Origin: Entamoeba histolytica HM-1:IMSS
Taxonomy: Eukaryota > Evosea > Mastigamoebida > Endamoebidae
Reading direction: 5' to 3'
Assembly: GCF_000208925.1 (NCBI RefSeq)
Contig: NW_001915086.1
Span: forward strand, 1-26,578
Length of the DNA stretch: 26,578 bases
Shown: one piece after another, positions 6,487 to 14,087 of the stretch
Position numbering within the stretch: position 1 is the stretch's first letter
How the letters are laid out: each line of letters opens with the position of its first letter
Translations under genes and position numbers: made by a program
Notes under the pieces: generated by a model
Told to the model about the DNA's origin: nothing
The model's database searches: none
The model's input: only the letters and a program-made list of their open reading frames with translations

Positions 6487-8643
6487 TTAATCAACGTCAT
6501 CTTCTTCATCAATAACGTTACCTTCTTCAATGCTCATATCTCCTTCATCAATTTGATCGTCATCTAATCCTAAAAGCTCATTAGTTTCATGGTCCATAAT
6601 ATCTTCATAGTCATATTCATCTTCTTCACTTTTTTCTTCATTGTTAATATTTTCTTTACTAACATTAAACTCAATCTCTTCAAGATTACCTTCTTCAGGT
6701 TCTTCTTCTTTTTTGACATACACCTTTCCATTATAAATAATGTCATCATCTTCTTCTAAATCTTCACTCATTCCATCAGAGTCATCGTCATGTTCTTCTT
6801 GAGTGTTATTTGATGGTTTATTTTCAGCAACACCTTTTTCAACGTGTTTATCAATGTAATAATCAAAGAAAAATAATAGCTCTGATGGTATTTTGTCTCT
6901 TTTTAACTCAATAAATTCTTCTGAGTTAACAATCATCTTTCGAGGATCATTCTTTTCATCTTTAATTTTATTAACAGTTTTTTTATCAAAGGAAATATGC
7001 CCATCATTTGTTTGTTCTTCTTCTTCATGTGGTTGGTCTTTAATTAACTTCTTTAAGGCAAAACGATCCAGTAATAACTTTGAACTTAATGACTCCCAAA
7101 GTTCCAAATTTACATGAATTGGAGTTCCATTAATTAATGACTGTGTTAATTGTCTTACTGTTGGGTGGTAGTGATGCAATAAGAAATTAATTTCAAAACA
7201 TTTTGTATTAATAGCCCCTGTATATGCAGGATCTCTTTTATTCCAATCAAATCCATGCTGACTTTTTTCACCTTCATTTTTGATAATTTGATTGCCACTA
7301 TCATCAATATCAATATCATGGTAATGTTCTTCATCGTCGTCTAATAGCTCACCATTATCAAATAAACCTTTAAGAATAGGATATTTTATTAACATATTTG
7401 ATACAATTCCAAGTACAGAACAAATGAATGAAGGAGAAGAATACAATGATTTAATCAATAATTTTTTAATAAAAGAAGCAATAACGTCAATAGATTCTTC
7501 TTTTAATAAGTTATTCCTTAATATATTGAGGAAAATAAATTGTTTTTCTGAAGGTAATTCAGTTATTTCATTAACTTTTTCATAAATCAAACGATTACAA
7601 CGTTTTGATCTATCAATTTCATTTAATAAAGAAACACATTCCAAAGCTCTAGTAAATGGAATAGTTCTAGCAATTTTGTATAAGTCAGTTAGATGTTCTT
7701 CAATTTCTTTAAAATTTTTACAACAATTAATGCATTTTCTCATTCCAATAATAACATTTTGAAGAGCACGAGTATCAATTTCTTTTTGATTGTATAATGA
7801 TTTAAAATACACAATAAGTAGTTTAATCATTGCTTCTGCTTGTTCTGGATTATTTTTTGAATATTGAATATTTTTGAGTGAAGTAAGACCTCTTCTAATA
7901 GTAATTTGATTAACATTAGGACGAATAATTAATTCTCTTATAGCATTAATAATATCTTCTGTTGTATCTTTATATCTCTTTAATAATTCTTGAATGTAAA
8001 AATCAGTTTTATTTGCAACTTTACCATTAAGATCACCTAATTTATTTACAACTAATGATATTACTTTATATCGTTGTTCTGGACATGAAGCTGCTAATTC
8101 ACTTGCACAACGAATAGCAGTAAGTTTAAATTTATTAACATTTCCCATTGATGCATTTTTAAGAATTTCAAGAAATTGTGCATAAGAATTCTTTAACAAA
8201 TGTTCAAAATAATATTTTGAAAGAATATAAGGAGTTGCAATTTCAAAGTTTTGTTGTTGAAAATTAAGTAAACAACGTTTTGGTAATAAATGTTGTTGAA
8301 ATAACTCTTTTGTTGCTCTTATAGCTAACTCAGATTCATCTCTATTTTTCTTTGTACAATGTCCTAGTAATTGAACAAGATAATTATATGTATTAAAAGG
8401 ACCACTCGATACTATTAATGCCAATGCTTTAATTTTATCATTATATGTACCAGTTGTAATTAATGACCTCATCCATTTACCATTATGTTCTGCAAGTTTC
8501 TTTTGTTCATAAACTGATGTCATTGCTTCATATTTTTCTTTGGCTTGTTTAAATTTCTTCTTGGCAATCTCATTATCATTTTTAATTGGTTTGATTTCTT
8601 CAGGAAGATCTTTCCACCAAGGAGCTGGTTGGTTTTCACTCAT
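6487..8643 (-). CDS. MAK21: Noc1/Mak21/CEBPZ-like 60S ribosome biogenesis factor
   Basis: The 718-residue protein is a CBF/Mak21-family member. In yeast the family (Noc1) helps early 60S pre-ribosome assembly in the nucleolus together with Noc2. The start WWKDLPEEIKP and the alpha-solenoid middle resemble the family. The diagnostic stretch at about residues 460-510 has the order DWNKRDPAYTGA, then CFEINFLLHHYHPTVRQL, matching the CBF-domain pattern KRDP-Y...(W/F)E-L-HYHP-V. The C-terminus is very acidic (Asp/Glu runs), as in many nucleolar proteins. It is shorter than yeast Mak21 (about 1,000 residues). The first ATG is at 8643; the codon before it is TTG, not a start. Its upstream side is the LINE insertion site. 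Confidence 0.88.
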   Translation of the reverse strand: MSENQPAPWWKDLPEEIKPIKNDNEIAKKKFKQAKEKYEAMTSVYEQKKLAEHNGKWMRSLITTGTYNDKIKALALIVSSGPFNTYNYLVQLLGHCTKKNRDESELAIRATKELFQQHLLPKRCLLNFQQQNFEIATPYILSKYYFEHLLKNSYAQFLEILKNASMGNVNKFKLTAIRCASELAASCPEQRYKVISLVVNKLGDLNGKVANKTDFYIQELLKRYKDTTEDIINAIRELIIRPNVNQITIRRGLTSLKNIQYSKNNPEQAEAMIKLLIVYFKSLYNQKEIDTRALQNVIIGMRKCINCCKNFKEIEEHLTDLYKIARTIPFTRALECVSLLNEIDRSKRCNRLIYEKVNEITELPSEKQFIFLNILRNNLLKEESIDVIASFIKKLLIKSLYSSPSFICSVLGIVSNMLIKYPILKGLFDNGELLDDDEEHYHDIDIDDSGNQIIKNEGEKSQHGFDWNKRDPAYTGAINTKCFEINFLLHHYHPTVRQLTQSLINGTPIHVNLELWESLSSKLLLDRFALKKLIKDQPHEEEEQTNDGHISFDKKTVNKIKDEKNDPRKMIVNSEEFIELKRDKIPSELLFFFDYYIDKHVEKGVAENKPSNNTQEEHDDDSDGMSEDLEEDDDIIYNGKVYVKKEEEPEEGNLEEIEFNVSKENINNEEKSEEDEYDYEDIMDHETNELLGLDDDQIDEGDMSIEEGNVIDEEDDVD

Positions 8644-8696
8644 CAATGAGAATTAGGTTTTCTTTAGTTTTTTTATTTTTTATTTATTTTTTATTT

Positions 8697-8714
8697 TTTT
8701 AGTAAAAATTTTTA
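8697..8714. repeat. Left target-site duplication of the LINE
   Basis: TTTTAGTAAAAATTTTTA (18 bp) is repeated exactly at 13444-13461. The T-rich stretch before it also resembles the one before the right copy, so the real duplication may be longer with T-tract slippage. Confidence 0.85.
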
Positions 8715-9414
8715 GTAAAAAAAGATGCATTACAGGAGACACCACAAAAAATATAAAAAAATAAATAACCAAAAAAGAAGAAATTCACATCATCCAAGAA
8801 ATATAAATGATAGAAGAATGAGTGAAAATAGGTATTATCTGTATGGACAGAGATACATGAATAATCACACTAATCATTACAATAATAATTATCACCATAA
8901 ATATCACAATATTGATGATACAAATTGTTTCACTCATCACTTCATTCATAATCATCGTCATAAACACTTTAATAATAACTTCAATAGAAATAAACAATAT
9001 CAATATAAGAAAAACAAATACCATAATAACACACAAAGAAGGTACAAACAATATCAAAATAAGAAACAAAATAGAAATCAAAGAAAAGAAATGATAGAAA
9101 TACAAAATCAAGAATATTGGAAAAGACTCTTTGAAGAAGAAATTAAAATACTTACACCACAAGAAGTAGAAGAAATTAAAAATACCAAGATTAAAGAATA
9201 TACATCATCAACAATATGGAGAAGATGGTATTTTATTGCACGAGAAAAAACAAAAACAATCAGAATGGAAGAAGAGACTATTAGTATGACGCTGGAAGAA
9301 GACAATAATCAATACAACCCAAATGAGATTAAAGACAATAGAATATACAATAACTATGTAATGAGTATTGAAAGTGAAGAAGACGATGATAAAGATTCTA
9401 CGAGAGTAGAAGCT

Positions 9415-9519
9415 AGGCTTGCTGAGGAGAAGAAGAGGCTGGTAGAAGAGGAGAAGAGGCTTGCTGAGGAGAAGAAGATCACTAAAGGAGAGAAGAAGAG
9501 GCTGGTAGAAAAGGAAGAA
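9415..9519 (+). repeat. Five imperfect 21-bp (7-codon) heptad repeats in ORF1
   Basis: Consecutive 21-bp units encode RLAEEKK, RLVEEEK, RLAEEKK, ITKGEKK and RLVEKEE. Units 1 (9415-9435) and 3 (9457-9477) are identical in DNA. Exactly one heptad per unit predicts a coiled coil, and the unit could expand or contract without a frameshift. The units are richer in G and C than the rest of the element. Confidence 0.85.
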
Positions 9520-10034
9520 GAAAACAGTAAAAAGAAAAAAAGAGTAGAAGAAATAGAAAAGAAAGTGGAGGAGGATATGAAAGAGAAAGAAGAAATGAAA
9601 AAGGAATTACAAATAAAAGACCAAACCATAAAAAAACTAACTAAAGATATTATGGCATTAAAGAAGAAGCATGAGAAGGAGATAAGCACAAAAAACCAAC
9701 GAGTATGATAAAAAATATTCAAATTCCATGCTGAATCTGAAAGAAAAAGGTCTGAAGTAAACAATTTAACACAACAATTGCTCTTCCTGAAAGATAAATT
9801 ATCTAAATTAGAAAATGAAAGTATACAGGAAGAAAAGAAGAAAGATGAGGTAACTTACAATATAACAGACTCATCTGAAACACAAATTGTGAATGACCTC
9901 TCCCCCAATGTGGTAGTAGCTGATGAAATATCATCAAGTGAAGATGATCTTCCAAAAAAGAAAGTTAACGCAGAAATCCATTGAAGAAATGGATATTCAG
10001 CATAAGAGGATCACCACATTAGAATTAGATAATC

Positions 10035-10049
10035 AAAAAAAAAAAAAAA
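10035..10049 (+). repeat. A15 homopolymer at the ORF1 end
   Basis: Fifteen A residues encode a Lys run a few codons before the ORF1 stop. It is a likely slippage site in replication, transcription or sequencing, and frame assignments on either side of it should be read with that in mind. Confidence 0.8.
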
Positions 10050-10061
10050 CAAATGAAGTAA

Positions 10062-13000
10062 ACAGATAGAAAAGAAGAAATTTTAACACTTTATAAATGT
10101 TTTGCTTTGAAATTATTTGAAAGAAAATTAAGAGGTCAACTTAAAGAAGAAATAATAGAAAGATTAATACAAGAATTTGGAATTAAAGTAAATGATATTA
10201 ATGAATATAAAGAAATATTAAAGAAGACATTTAAAATAAAGAATGAAATTAAAAGAGAAATCAATAGAATAATGGAGGAAGAAATAATAAAACATCAATG
10301 GAAAGATAAAGAATTAAAAGAAATAATAACTAGAATGAACAAGAAAGAAGAAATAAAAGAAGAGGAGGTAATGAAAATATTTAAAGAAGAAGAAATGAAA
10401 GAACAAGAAGATATACAATTTATTAACTATTATTACAATAAGAAGAAAGTACATCAAATAATTAACATTATTAATAAAAAATGAAATAATAATAAATACA
10501 TTAGATGATTATTATCATTATATTAAATCAGTATCTTCCACTATTAACATCATTAATAAAAATAAACAAGAAAGAAGTTGAAAGAAAAGTATAGAAAGAA
10601 TATTACAATCAAAAATATGTAGATTGAGAGATTTACTCCATAATAAACAATATATGAAATTAAAAAGAATATTACATATTAAGAAATATGATATATATCA
10701 TATTAAAATAAAAACAATTGAACAAATAAACTATTATAAATACCTCCGAAAGATGAAAAGAATAGAAATAGAAGCAAGAAAGAATAATTTGAAAAGAATA
10801 AGATGGAATTATAAAATGATGAAATATGGAAAAAGGCAACACCTAAATAAATCTAAAGAAGATGAATATCCAGATAATATCTCCACTATTAATTTCTGGA
10901 AATGAATCTATGAAACTAATACCAATATAGATTTCCTGAATATTAATTTATATGAAATATTAATTGAAAATCGAATTAATGATAGAATGGCTATAATCAC
11001 TCCAAATGAACTAGATTGTGATATTAAATTTATTGTTAATTGGAAGGCACCGGGAGTTGATAAAATACAAGGAATTTTGGATTAAATATTTAGAACAACC
11101 AAAGAAATACTTATTAAAATTATTTAATGAATGGTTGAATAATCCTAATGAAATACCTCTTCATTTTATTCAATGAAGGACAATATTAATATATAAAAAA
11201 GGAGATAAACTAGACCCACAGAATTACAGACCAATAACGTGTTTAAATTGTCTGTTAAAAGTGTATACATCAATATTAAAGATGAAAATAGAAAGCCAAT
11301 TGATGCTAAATCAAATTGAAAAACAACTATCATTAAATCAAATTAGATGTAAGAAATACACATATGCATCAAAAGAAGGATTATTATACAACACTATAAT
11401 CCAACAATTATTATTAAAGACTAAATGGAAGTGGGTAGAAACATATTATGACGTCTCCAAAGCATATGATAGTATTAACCACCAATGGATTAAACAATGC
11501 TTAATATATTTTAATATCAAACTAGCATTAATTAATAATATATTATATATATTAAATAATACACAAATTAATTTGTATTACAATCAAGAAAGTGTAGGTA
11601 TAATTAATGTAGAAAGATGAATAATACAAATGATAGTTTATCTCCACTTTTATTTGTATTATCTATTGATATATTATCTAAACAATTAGATAAACAAATA
11701 ATCAAATTAAATATCAAAATGAATGGAGAAGAAAAACAAGTCCAGTTAAACCACATATTGTATATGGATGATTTAAAAATAACGACTAATAGCCTCGATG
11801 AAATGGAAATCACACAAATTGACTAAATAAATATTTAATGCAGTATGATTAAAAATTAATGTAGAAAAGAGTTTGATAATGACTAATATTAATAGTCAAA
11901 TAAATTGAGAAATTGTTGAATTAACACGAGTAACTAATAACAATCATTATAAATATCTTGATATTGAAATATGAGATAAAATAAATATTAATAAATATTG
12001 TACAAGAATATTAAATGTTGTATCTTCTATTTTATCATCATTAAACACTATGAAATACAGCAGCCTCAATACAATAAGAAAGATTAATAGTGATATAATC
12101 TCCAAATTAAGATATGAATTTAGTATTGTCCCATGGAAACTATGAGAATTGGAGAAGATAGATAAACAAATAAGAAAATCATTAATACAACTCCAATTAT
12201 ATAGTAGAAATATCCCAAAAAGTAGATTATATGTTAAAATAAATGAATTTGGAATAGGATTAATATCAGCAAGAGATGAATGTGGTAAAGAATTATTAAG
12301 AATATATTTAAAATATAAGTGGAGATCAAACACAGGAATATGAGAAATGATAGAAGCAATAAAAGAAAATCTAAATTGAATAATTAAAAGAATGAAGAAA
12401 GCATTTGGTAAGAAGATTAATTTTAATGAATTAATGAACGTAATAGAAATAAATGAAAGAAAGCACAATGTAAAGGAAATATTTGAATTTGTAAATAATG
12501 AATTGAATGATAGATATTTAAGTGAATGGAAAGAAAAGAAATGTGGTGAATATATAAGATGTGCAAATGGCACTTTCAATGATAAGAAATTAACAGTAGC
12601 CACTTGGAGGTCATTAAATATAAAAAGAAATGCATTCCTCCAAATAGTAAAAATGCAAGAATGAGTAAGTATGACAGGAAATATTAAAGCAAAAATACTC
12701 AAAAGTGATGATTTAAAATATTGTAAACATTGTCATAACACTATTACATCTATTAGTCATATATTGTTAGGATGTAATGAAAAAGAATCAAATATTAAAA
12801 CATGATTATGTGTAAACAAATATTTAAACACATATTAATTACACATTTTAATGAATTTGATGCAATTGATTTTAATAATCCTCCTAAATGTATTAATAAT
12901 GATGAAATGGTTATAACTTACAACATTGATTTATTGGTTAGTGATAATTCATTCCATGCTAGAAAACCAGATATATATTATCAAAATATTACAGAAAAGA

Positions 13001-13422
13001 AATGATATAATATAGATGTTGCTATATGTCAGGATAATAATTTAGAATTAAATTATATTCATAAAATAAATAAGTATAAAGATTTACAAGAGAAAATAAG
13101 AAATAATAGAGAAATAATATATGTTGAAATAATATCTGTTATATTATCAATAAATGGTTTAATTCACAAAGAGTCAGTAATAAGATTAAAATCACTGAAA
13201 TTACAATTAGACTTTGCCAAAATCCTACGAACAATAATAATAAAAAATATGAAAGACTTAATGTTTTATACAGGAAATTCTGGCAGCACATTAGAAGAAG
13301 AACAATCTAATGCGAGCATGCTAGAAATTAACTCTATTACACCAATAGAGCATATTGAAGAAACTGAAATAATCACTTCTCAGTATGAAGAAAATCCAAT
13401 TGAGGATATATCTAATAATTGA
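10062..13422 (+). pseudogene. LINE ORF2: reverse transcriptase plus restriction-like endonuclease, with frameshifts and many TGA codons
   Basis: The coding path runs frame 3 (10062-10481), frame 1 (10483-11076), frame 2 (11078-11620), frame 1 (11620-11808), frame 2 (11810-12800) and frame 1 (12802-13422). RT landmarks in order are NWKAPGVDKIQG (11038-11073), YKKGD...NYRPIT (11192-11237), DVSKAYDSI (motif A Asp at 11450-11452), SLSPLLF (about 11635), YMDD (11761-11772) and LKINVEKS (from 11849). The zinc motif CKHC-X8-H-X4-C is at 12722-12775. The endonuclease RKPD at 12961-12972 is followed 14 codons later by Asp at 13015-13017. In-frame TGA codons occur at 10579, 10903, 11174, 11618, 11846, 11906, 11972, 12143, 12341, 12377, 12662 and 13003. 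One TAA is at 11828 and there is no TAG. No ATG opens the first frame before about codon 70. Confidence 0.88.
12722..13017 (+). other. CCHC and PD-X14-D endonuclease core of LINE ORF2
   Basis: The zinc-knuckle-like C-X2-C-X8-H-X4-C lies at 12722-12775. Pro-Asp (12967-12972) is followed by 14 codons and then Asp (13015-13017) in the string YNIDVAI. This is the PD-(D/E)-fold catalytic layout known from EhLINE, R2 and R4 endonucleases, which nick the target site for target-primed reverse transcription. A frameshift near 12802 lies between the two motifs, and a TGA at 13003 lies within the 14-codon spacer. Confidence 0.85.
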
Positions 13423-13424
13423 CC

Positions 13425-13442
13425 TTTTTTTTTTTTTTTTTT
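13425..13442 (+). repeat. T18 tract at the 3' end of the LINE
   Basis: Eighteen T residues separate the ORF2 terminal TGA-CC from ATTTTAGTAAAAA. The pre-insertion flank at 8667-8700 is also very T-rich, so the tract may be duplicated target DNA with slippage rather than part of the element. No poly(A) is present on the coding strand. Confidence 0.7.
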
Positions 13443-13443
13443 A

Positions 13444-13461
13444 TTTTAGTAAAAATTTTTA
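13444..13461. repeat. Right target-site duplication of the LINE
   Basis: This is an exact copy of 8697-8714 (TTTTAGTAAAAATTTTTA). It ends 26 bases before the RING gene's ATG, so the insertion lies in or next to that gene's core promoter. Confidence 0.85.
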
Positions 13462-13487: not shown

Positions 13488-14087
13488 ATGTCATCTGAAA
13501 ATACATATTACTGTGAAAATTGTCATAAAAAGTATAATAGAAATAAAGGAATATTAGTCTGTCCATTTTGTGGTTCTGACTTTGTAGTTGAACAGCCATT
13601 TGTTATGTTTAAAAAAATGCCAATTCCTGAGAATGAAATGATAAGAAGGTCATATAACCAATCATTTAATGATTACTCACAACCTGATTTGATTGATTTT
13701 CCACACCCTTCATCTGAAAGAATTCCTTTTCATCCAGACCCTATGAGTTATTCAGGAGATTTGTATATGCTACAACCACGAATAAGAAATCCTATTCAAA
13801 TTTATCCAAGAAACCCATACACAGGAAGTTCCCATGAGCCATACCTTGGTATTTATGATCGTGGTAATTTTGGTACTATTAATGATATTTCATATAATCG
13901 CCCAACACAACCACTACGACCAATGCCATCTTCTTCATTACAAATTATTCCAAAAGAATGTTGTGTCTTTTGTGAAAAAGAATTAGAAAAAGAAGAAGAT
14001 ATTATTACATTAACTTGTGGGCATCAATGTCATAGCCATTGTGTAAAATCTTCTCATTGTCCTATCTGCACTAGTCTTTACAATTAA
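13488..14087 (+). CDS. Zinc-ribbon plus RING-H2 protein, probable RNF115/126-like E3 ubiquitin ligase
   Basis: The 199-residue protein opens with a zinc ribbon, Cys9-X2-Cys12 and Cys25-X2-Cys28 (YYCENCHKKY...LVCPFCGSDFV), like the N-terminal BCA2 zinc finger of RNF115/RNF126. A Pro-rich linker (about 35-155) rich in Tyr, Arg and Asn follows. The C-terminus has a compact RING-H2: Cys159, Cys162, Cys177, His179, His182, Cys185, Cys191, Cys194. The spacing between Cys185 and Cys191 is only five residues, and the protein ends five residues after the last Cys. The domain order (ribbon first, RING last) supports an E3 ubiquitin ligase that may bind ubiquitin through its ribbon; this is inference from the family. 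The LINE lies directly upstream and may have displaced its promoter. Confidence 0.85.
   Translation: MSSENTYYCENCHKKYNRNKGILVCPFCGSDFVVEQPFVMFKKMPIPENEMIRRSYNQSFNDYSQPDLIDFPHPSSERIPFHPDPMSYSGDLYMLQPRIRNPIQIYPRNPYTGSSHEPYLGIYDRGNFGTINDISYNRPTQPLRPMPSSSLQIIPKECCVFCEKELEKEEDIITLTCGHQCHSHCVKSSHCPICTSLYN

Follow-up and report, generated by a model that had tools for sequence, protein, structure and literature searches.

Long interspersed nuclear elements (LINEs) of the EhLINE and EdLINE type are non-LTR (long terminal repeat) retrotransposons of about 4.7-4.8 kb, with the reverse transcriptase (RT) in the second open reading frame (ORF2) and several families per genome, as described in parts of PMC2657916 and PMC3716655. 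Entamoeba LINEs bear interrupting stops or frameshifts (parts of PMC2657916, PMC2996970). The 26,578-nucleotide contig NW_001915086.1 of Entamoeba histolytica HM-1:IMSS, analysed over its whole length (the window), carries a dead copy of such a 4.8-kb Entamoeba LINE. The window element has an RT domain, a length of about 4.8 kb, multiple copies and two ORF regions. It resembles the elements in the parts cited in size, in the placement of the RT in ORF2, in having at least one ORF broken by stops or frameshifts and in belonging to one of several families in its genome. The host clade also fits, as the XRN exonuclease encoded in the window is 93% identical to one Entamoeba dispar XRN (and 52-53% identical to further E. 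nuttalli and E. dispar XRNs). However, the parts of PMC2657916 and PMC3716655 that report interrupting stops do so without stop type or mutation context. The parts of PMC2657916 and PMC2996970 covered give no stop type, and both main texts lack the word “transversion”.

In the window copy, nearly all in-frame stops of ORF2 are TGA. This excess very likely comes from a neighbour-dependent transversion, GG to TG (CC to CA on the other strand), which is, per site, about seven times as frequent as the same change beside other bases. Our confidence here covers only the origin of the TGA codons; two of the explanations weighed below, a host-wide mutation spectrum and an error of the element's RT, concern the cause and can hold alongside it.

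Two described processes come close. Fungal repeat-induced point mutation (RIP) likewise mutates repeated elements in a context-dependent way; its changes are C:G to T:A transitions, with CpA as the preferred target (part of PMC4352252). However, the change in these LINEs is a transversion at GG/CC, its confinement to repeats is only possible, and C>T is not raised at CpA (0.075 before A, versus 0.107 before T and 0.169 before G). Mutagenesis by 8-oxoguanine is expected to give G>T transversions on both strands (parts of PMC6052137, PMC13128490), and the LINE copies show both the G>T change and the strand symmetry. It should act genome-wide, whereas array repeats and intergenic GG show no sign of the change here, in controls that are small. 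A literature search of titles and the beginnings of abstracts returned no GG>TG signature in Entamoeba repeats, which is no claim that none is in print.

Source codons of the in-frame TGAs

Scoring 40 of 380 candidates yielded 43 DNA matches in the family of the window copy (family 1). Thirty of the 43, those with loci cut (L009-L038), were aligned, with the window included; their identity to the window is 91-95%. Columns covered by fewer than half of the copies were excluded. Among 3396 shared columns, one phase held 317 stops against 5064 and 4835 in the other two, and this phase served as the codon grid. The initial annotation had listed 12 TGA codons, one TAA (11828) and no TAG, and all 13 positions were reproduced on the grid. 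One further grid stop of the window copy, a TAA at 10059 present in 2 of 30 copies, lies outside the interval it had considered.

At least 12 TGA among 13 stops has a chance of 2.5e-8 under a context-free base-change model (TGA share 0.19) and of 2e-5 under a model with sequence context (TGA share about 0.34). The 30 copies together hold 210 TGA, 97 TAA and 10 TAG on the grid, terminator column included. In a genome survey of RT domains, the 150 matches scored of 309 candidates carried 163 TGA, 60 TAA and 30 TAG, and 33 were stop-free. The TGA excess is thus real and family-wide, not particular to the window copy. That ORF2 itself ends in TGA was confirmed in the aligned copies (Table 1). The companion claim about host genes also held for the ORFs counted: in the window, TAA closes all 7 ORFs that start with ATG and span 200 or more amino acids. 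Long TGA-ended ORFs do exist, however; in the non-LINE DNA analysed, the terminator of 22 ORFs of at least 200 amino acids is TAA in 18 cases, TGA in 3 and TAG in 1.

The TGAs have essentially one source. TGA replaces GGA in 155 of 744 codon cells (25 columns) and every other codon combined in 8 of 4962. Other routes to a stop are rare: GAA>TAA 28/2623, AAA>TAA 6/3163, TGG>TGA 1/439 and AGA>TGA 0/1218. At the window's 12 TGA sites, the commonest codon in the 30 copies is GGA at nine, GGT at one and TGA at one, with a TGA/GGA tie at the last; a check run on the consensus codon of each site gave a glycine codon as the commonest non-TGA codon at 12 of 12. An outgroup LINE, a copy of a second family with an open 945-amino-acid frame and 36% identity over 936 aligned residues (L002), has Gly at 7 of these sites, Ser at 2, Lys, Asn and Thr at 1 each and Trp at none, against a Gly background of 4.7%. 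Given the Gly codons of the aligned copies and the outgroup glycines, the ancestral residue was mostly Gly, and Trp at no site. The remark that 11618 and 11846 fall where RTs usually have Gly proved the clue to the origin of the TGAs.

The underlying change is defined by the neighbouring base. G>T occurs in 341 of 2172 cells before G (15.7%, 77 columns), as against 133/8052 (1.7%) before A, 30/2399 (1.3%) before T and 49/1103 (4.4%) before C. On the complementary strand, C>A occurs in 231 of 1555 cells after C (14.9%, 55 columns) and at 1.6-5.1% after A (59/3675), T (68/2815) and G (55/1072). The ratio of the hot-context rate to the rest is 7.5 (column bootstrap 5.7-9.8). The change is strand-symmetric and found in every frame, with GGA>TGA in 22/24, 12/14 and 4/8 GGA columns of the three phases. 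Its direction is from GG to TG: some T is present in 58 of 75 GG-majority columns, and some G in only 6 of 175 TG-majority columns. Of the well-sampled contexts, AGGA is highest (0.228), and GGGG (0.045) and NGGC (0.067) are lowest. The hotspot is weaker in the ORF1 region, where G>T before G is 62/744 and C>A after C is 39/627. It is nearly missing from the final 400 bp of aligned ORF2 (observed/expected 0.29). A second LINE family, represented by five loci (L002-L006, the best RT scorers of 45 matches), repeats it at 52/963 versus 49/4258, a ratio of 4.7 (2.9-7.8). The 30 family-1 copies also show other raised contexts: GCT, where C>T reaches 0.295, and G followed by T or by C, where G>A reaches 0.108 and 0.101.

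GGA supplies most glycine codons, and the hotspot yields TGA wherever it strikes a GGA codon. Elsewhere it turns Trp into Leu, Pro into Gln or His, and the like. The suggestion of a mutation bias toward TGA was thus right in kind, but the target is TG from GG (CC to CA) in all three frames, and not TGA itself.

We considered inheritance of TGA within subfamilies and rejected it, as a tree built with the hot binary columns removed fits scarcely better than shuffled labels (0.79 changes per minor copy for hot and 0.79 for other columns, versus 0.85 and 0.87 after shuffling). Nor are the TGAs linked haplotypes, since columns more than 30 bp apart show no more than chance linkage.

The initial annotation had also proposed that TGA is tolerated or decoded as sense, or that the element came from a UGA-recoding source. 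Neither gains support, given that TGA seldom arises from any codon but GGA (TGG and AGA being among the poor sources), and given an outgroup with Gly at most sites and Trp at none. If UGA were read as glycine in the element, GGA>TGA would be silent and tolerated. This would agree with GGA>TGA being by far the commonest stop route, with the excess of in-frame over other AGGA columns (P 0.004) and with the outgroup glycines. However, the same hotspot makes Trp>Leu, Pro>Gln and Pro>His changes at the class average on both strands, none of which a code change explains; the nonsense excess over all contexts is non-significant (P 0.10), 3 of the 22 long non-LINE ORFs terminate in TGA, and the stop-recognition motifs of the release factor eRF1 are standard. 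We therefore consider this reading very unlikely. NIKS, YxCxxxF and GTS are the usual motifs of this kind in eRF1, and the eRF1 encoded at L063 retains all three, as judged by eye in its translation. A UGA read as tryptophan, whether by this organism or by the one the element came from, is scarcely credible: TGA and TGG do occur together in the ORF2 frame, but the commonest non-TGA codon is Gly at every site, TGG>TGA was found once, and the outgroup has no Trp. A UCA anticodon was absent from the 9 readable anticodons of 14 tRNAs called (22 tRNA matches or loci), a partial survey.

The genetic code appears unchanged, with UGA still a stop. Missense changes by the hotspot on both strands, apparently unselected, together with the rarity of TGA from other codons, speak against a code change. 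The eRF1, XRN and helicase host frames are open without internal TGA, and the 22 non-LINE ORFs, chosen for openness, show merely that long TGA-free frames are normal. Sequencing or assembly error is extremely improbable. Repeats are hard to assemble, but 251 GGA codons stay open in those 22 ORFs (again, chosen for openness), and such an error would have to be context-specific, spare the array repeats and differ among copies. What looked like a code change thus appears to be a mutation signature, which removes a false lead, and surveys of UGA recoding that start from TGA-rich frames should first examine the GG context.

Selection, recombination and timing

Selection was assessed by the ratio of nonsynonymous or nonsense to synonymous changes in the 30 copies, leaving out two columns with a stop as source codon (one of them the terminator) and everything past the terminator. 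For the hot class (GG>TG/CC>CA), nonsynonymous/synonymous is 1.5 (0.8-3.6) and nonsense/synonymous 2.5 (1.3-6.1). The corresponding ratios are 0.34 and 0.16 for GC>AT transitions and 0.34 and 0.15 for A<>T changes; the nonsynonymous ratio is 0.24 for AT>GC transitions and 0.46 for other transversions, which made 0 nonsense changes in 4432. When NGGN contexts are matched, the numbers of nonsense, missense and silent hits show no significant departure from those expected (one-sided P 0.10, 0.28 and 0.14, respectively), and hot missense changes lie near the class average (Trp>Leu 69/439, Pro>Gln 73/478, Pro>His 41/282). In family 2 the hot hits are 3/102 silent, 22/581 missense and 9/131 nonsense, while missense is depleted in all five other classes.

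Working elements therefore seem to have passed on most of the differences between copies, but not the hot changes. As the hot class shows no purifying selection and transitions and A<>T changes are under it, the hot changes probably date to the last retrotransposition or later, when selection had ceased to act on the copies. So strong and selection-free a mutation pattern is unusual. It also provides a tool, as one selection-free context class beside selected classes separates events after the last jump from inherited changes.

The linkage of polymorphic columns in these copies falls to chance level past about 30 bp. For changes under selection this suggests heavy recombination or template switching, and the LINE population is apparently freely recombining. 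Recombinant short interspersed nuclear elements (SINEs) have reportedly been described by Yadav et al. 2012.

Several observations weigh against this account. The ancestral state was taken as the commonest base, or as G or C at 40% or more. The hot rate is uneven along the element (observed/expected 0.29-1.51), and the Gly>Cys rate is low (22/290). Third-codon-position hot rates (0.067 and 0.090) are about half those elsewhere (0.15-0.18), perhaps because mutable sites free of constraint disappeared long ago. When trained on changes that make no stop, a context model predicts 74-80 GGA>TGA changes where 155 are observed, and predicts too many of the other stops. Selection may account for the over-predicted stops, and a longer sequence context for the GGA>TGA shortfall. 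Within AGGA, in-frame nonsense columns have a rate of 0.296 versus 0.134 in other columns (Mann-Whitney P 0.004). For G>T/C>A changes outside GG/CC, nonsynonymous/synonymous is 0.51 with an interval up to 2.2, so that not every other class need be under selection, and nonsense/synonymous is 0.33 with an interval whose upper end is above 1. Finally, the silent hot class is small, with 11 columns in family 1 and 3 of 102 cells in family 2.

Candidate causes of the hotspot

We tentatively favour a repeat- or retrotransposition-linked hypermutation, a reading that could well prove wrong, in which GG on either strand would become TG when a copy last inserted or later on. It would leave about 19 ORF2 hits per copy, disabling the copies by UGA, on top of otherwise selected and apparently freely recombining LINEs. 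The proposed cause would be oxidative damage in LINE DNA to the 5' guanine of GG or, alternatively, misinsertion of A opposite that guanine by the element's RT. The 5' G of GG is a preferred oxidation site. An origin linked to LINEs or repeats seems to us somewhat likelier than a host-wide spectrum.

If instead GG>TG reflected recent neutral mutation throughout the host genome, with oxidised guanine as one conceivable source, the LINEs would merely record it. This is a serious possibility, if on balance a doubtful one. Strand symmetry is consistent with it, and so is the near-Poisson load of hot hits per family-1 copy (7-25 in ORF2, mean 18.6, variance 18.3). The genome gave no match to the OGG1 N-domain (OGG_N), which also fits. 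Two non-LINE controls point the same way. The first is a dispersed repeat (the L060 type), sampled in 21 copies (L065-L082, 18 of 42 matches, plus L060:2720-3102, L032:4871-5246 and L020:25-361). It shows 21/218 hot versus 30/1446 other changes, a ratio of 4.6 with a bootstrap interval of 1.09-14.9, from 11 hot columns of which 6 are without a hit. The second is the array pair L041/L042, with 4/27 versus 11/221.

Other controls point away from a host-wide spectrum. The array repeats L056, L057 and L059, three copies in all, have 1/106 versus 63/1445 (Fisher P 0.12; column-bootstrap ratio 0-0.73), the pooled non-LINE pairs, L041/L042 included, 9/407 versus 129/3741, and array pairs at 3-10% local divergence 3/89 versus 42/749. 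At 10-25% local divergence the array pairs give 5/15 versus 85/445 (P 0.19). The array controls are small, and constraint may act on those of their GG sites that belong to tRNA genes. Intergenic GG stands at 0.94-1.04 of expectation, versus about 0.55 at equilibrium in a simulation under the LINE spectrum; the simulation comes near the actual values for TG, GA and CG and less near for TA, GT and GC. The near-expected intergenic GG argues against a long-standing host-wide process, not against a recent one.

The repair genes bear on the same question. The genome holds two Nth-like genes (PF00730 matches, by eye) and a MutY gene in two exons, whose presence also tells against a host-wide spectrum. 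Together with the missing OGG_N match, this set agrees with the E. histolytica gene list in part of PMC6052137. Loss of MutY was tried as a cause and rejected, because a mutY model found this third gene, in two pieces, beyond the two Nth-like PF00730 matches. The MutY-like gene (L064, C355:70400-71700) has an apparent short intron, and an in-frame TAG is read as lying at the intron end.

The hotspot might also be an error of the LINE RT in its last round, with A placed opposite the 5' G of GG on both RNA and first-strand DNA. Both strands may be synthesised by the element's own enzyme, which would give symmetry. That both LINE families have the hotspot, and that one other dispersed repeat has it weakly, agrees with this, as do the absence of selection on the hot class and the Poisson-like load of the 30 copies. 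Nevertheless, we consider it unlikely as the cause: some 19 ORF2 hits per copy would leave few functional daughters, loads in family 2 vary from 1 to 14 per copy (in copies picked as best RT matches), and the L060-type repeat may carry the hotspot too.

Two further patterns gave little. Strand-coordinated clusters of hot hits were not found, mean correlations being about 0 save for 0.077 (s.e. 0.034) among same-strand pairs within 60 bp. Age as a driver was likewise set aside, as hot hits and other divergence are weakly correlated (0.31, 0.19), with little power in either direction.

Should the repeat- or retrotransposition-linked reading be true, the process would be to transversions what RIP is to transitions, or else the mark left by the element's RT. 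A hotspot confined to retroelements would point to an undescribed way in which the genome or the element's enzyme destroys new copies; one that is genome-wide and recent would describe how this amoeba mutates.

The LINE copy, related repeats and host genes

The genome comprises 17 Mb in 392 contigs, of which the window is one (C166). The LINE boundaries follow from the other 29 copies, 17 of which match at 8701 and none at 8601, and all 29 of which match at 13401 and none at 13501. The features are collected in Table 1.

Table 1. Features of the LINE copy in the window
Feature	Position	Strand	Basis or remark
Whole LINE copy, about 4.8 kb	8680..13450 (boundaries approximate)	+	Copy depth across 29 other copies
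ORF1 region, two open stretches, single frame	8719..9984	+	TGA 9706-9708 between, TGA 9982-9984 at end
ORF2 pseudogene: reverse transcriptase, then C-terminal Cys/His and endonuclease-like part	10060..13422 (start approximate)	+	Stops and several frame changes
ORF2 internal TGA codons	10579, 10903, 11174, 11618, 11846, 11906, 11972, 12143, 12341, 12377, 12662, 13003	+	Codon grid
Reverse transcriptase domain open stretch	11177..11620	+	RVT_1, E=8.5e-10
ORF2 end codon	13420..13422	+	TGA in 24/27 ungapped copies

The C-terminal part of ORF2 has a Cys/His cluster and PD residues, seen by eye only, which may mark an endonuclease; 13006-13422, the putative restriction-enzyme-like endonuclease part, gave no Pfam match. 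In ORF1, followed in the window copy alone, the open stretches are 8719-9708, which is without a Pfam family match, and 9712-9984. Both terminate in TGA, in a frame common to the two.

Two candidates for additional comparison were dropped. The L001/L007 pair, considered as a third family, has a family-1 tail and is not independent. A 588-bp repeat, considered as a SINE control, seems, judging by where its copies lie, to belong to the second LINE family as its 5' part; this piece (L017:4932-5519; also in L034, L011 and L029) adjoins family-1 LINE 3' ends in several loci. The L060-type dispersed repeat, with 40 copies scored at 87-100% identity, begins in L032 a few bases from a LINE 3' end.

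Besides the XRN exonuclease, the host genes of the window include those for a DEAD_2-type helicase, a CBF/Mak21 protein, a kinase and a PQ-loop protein.

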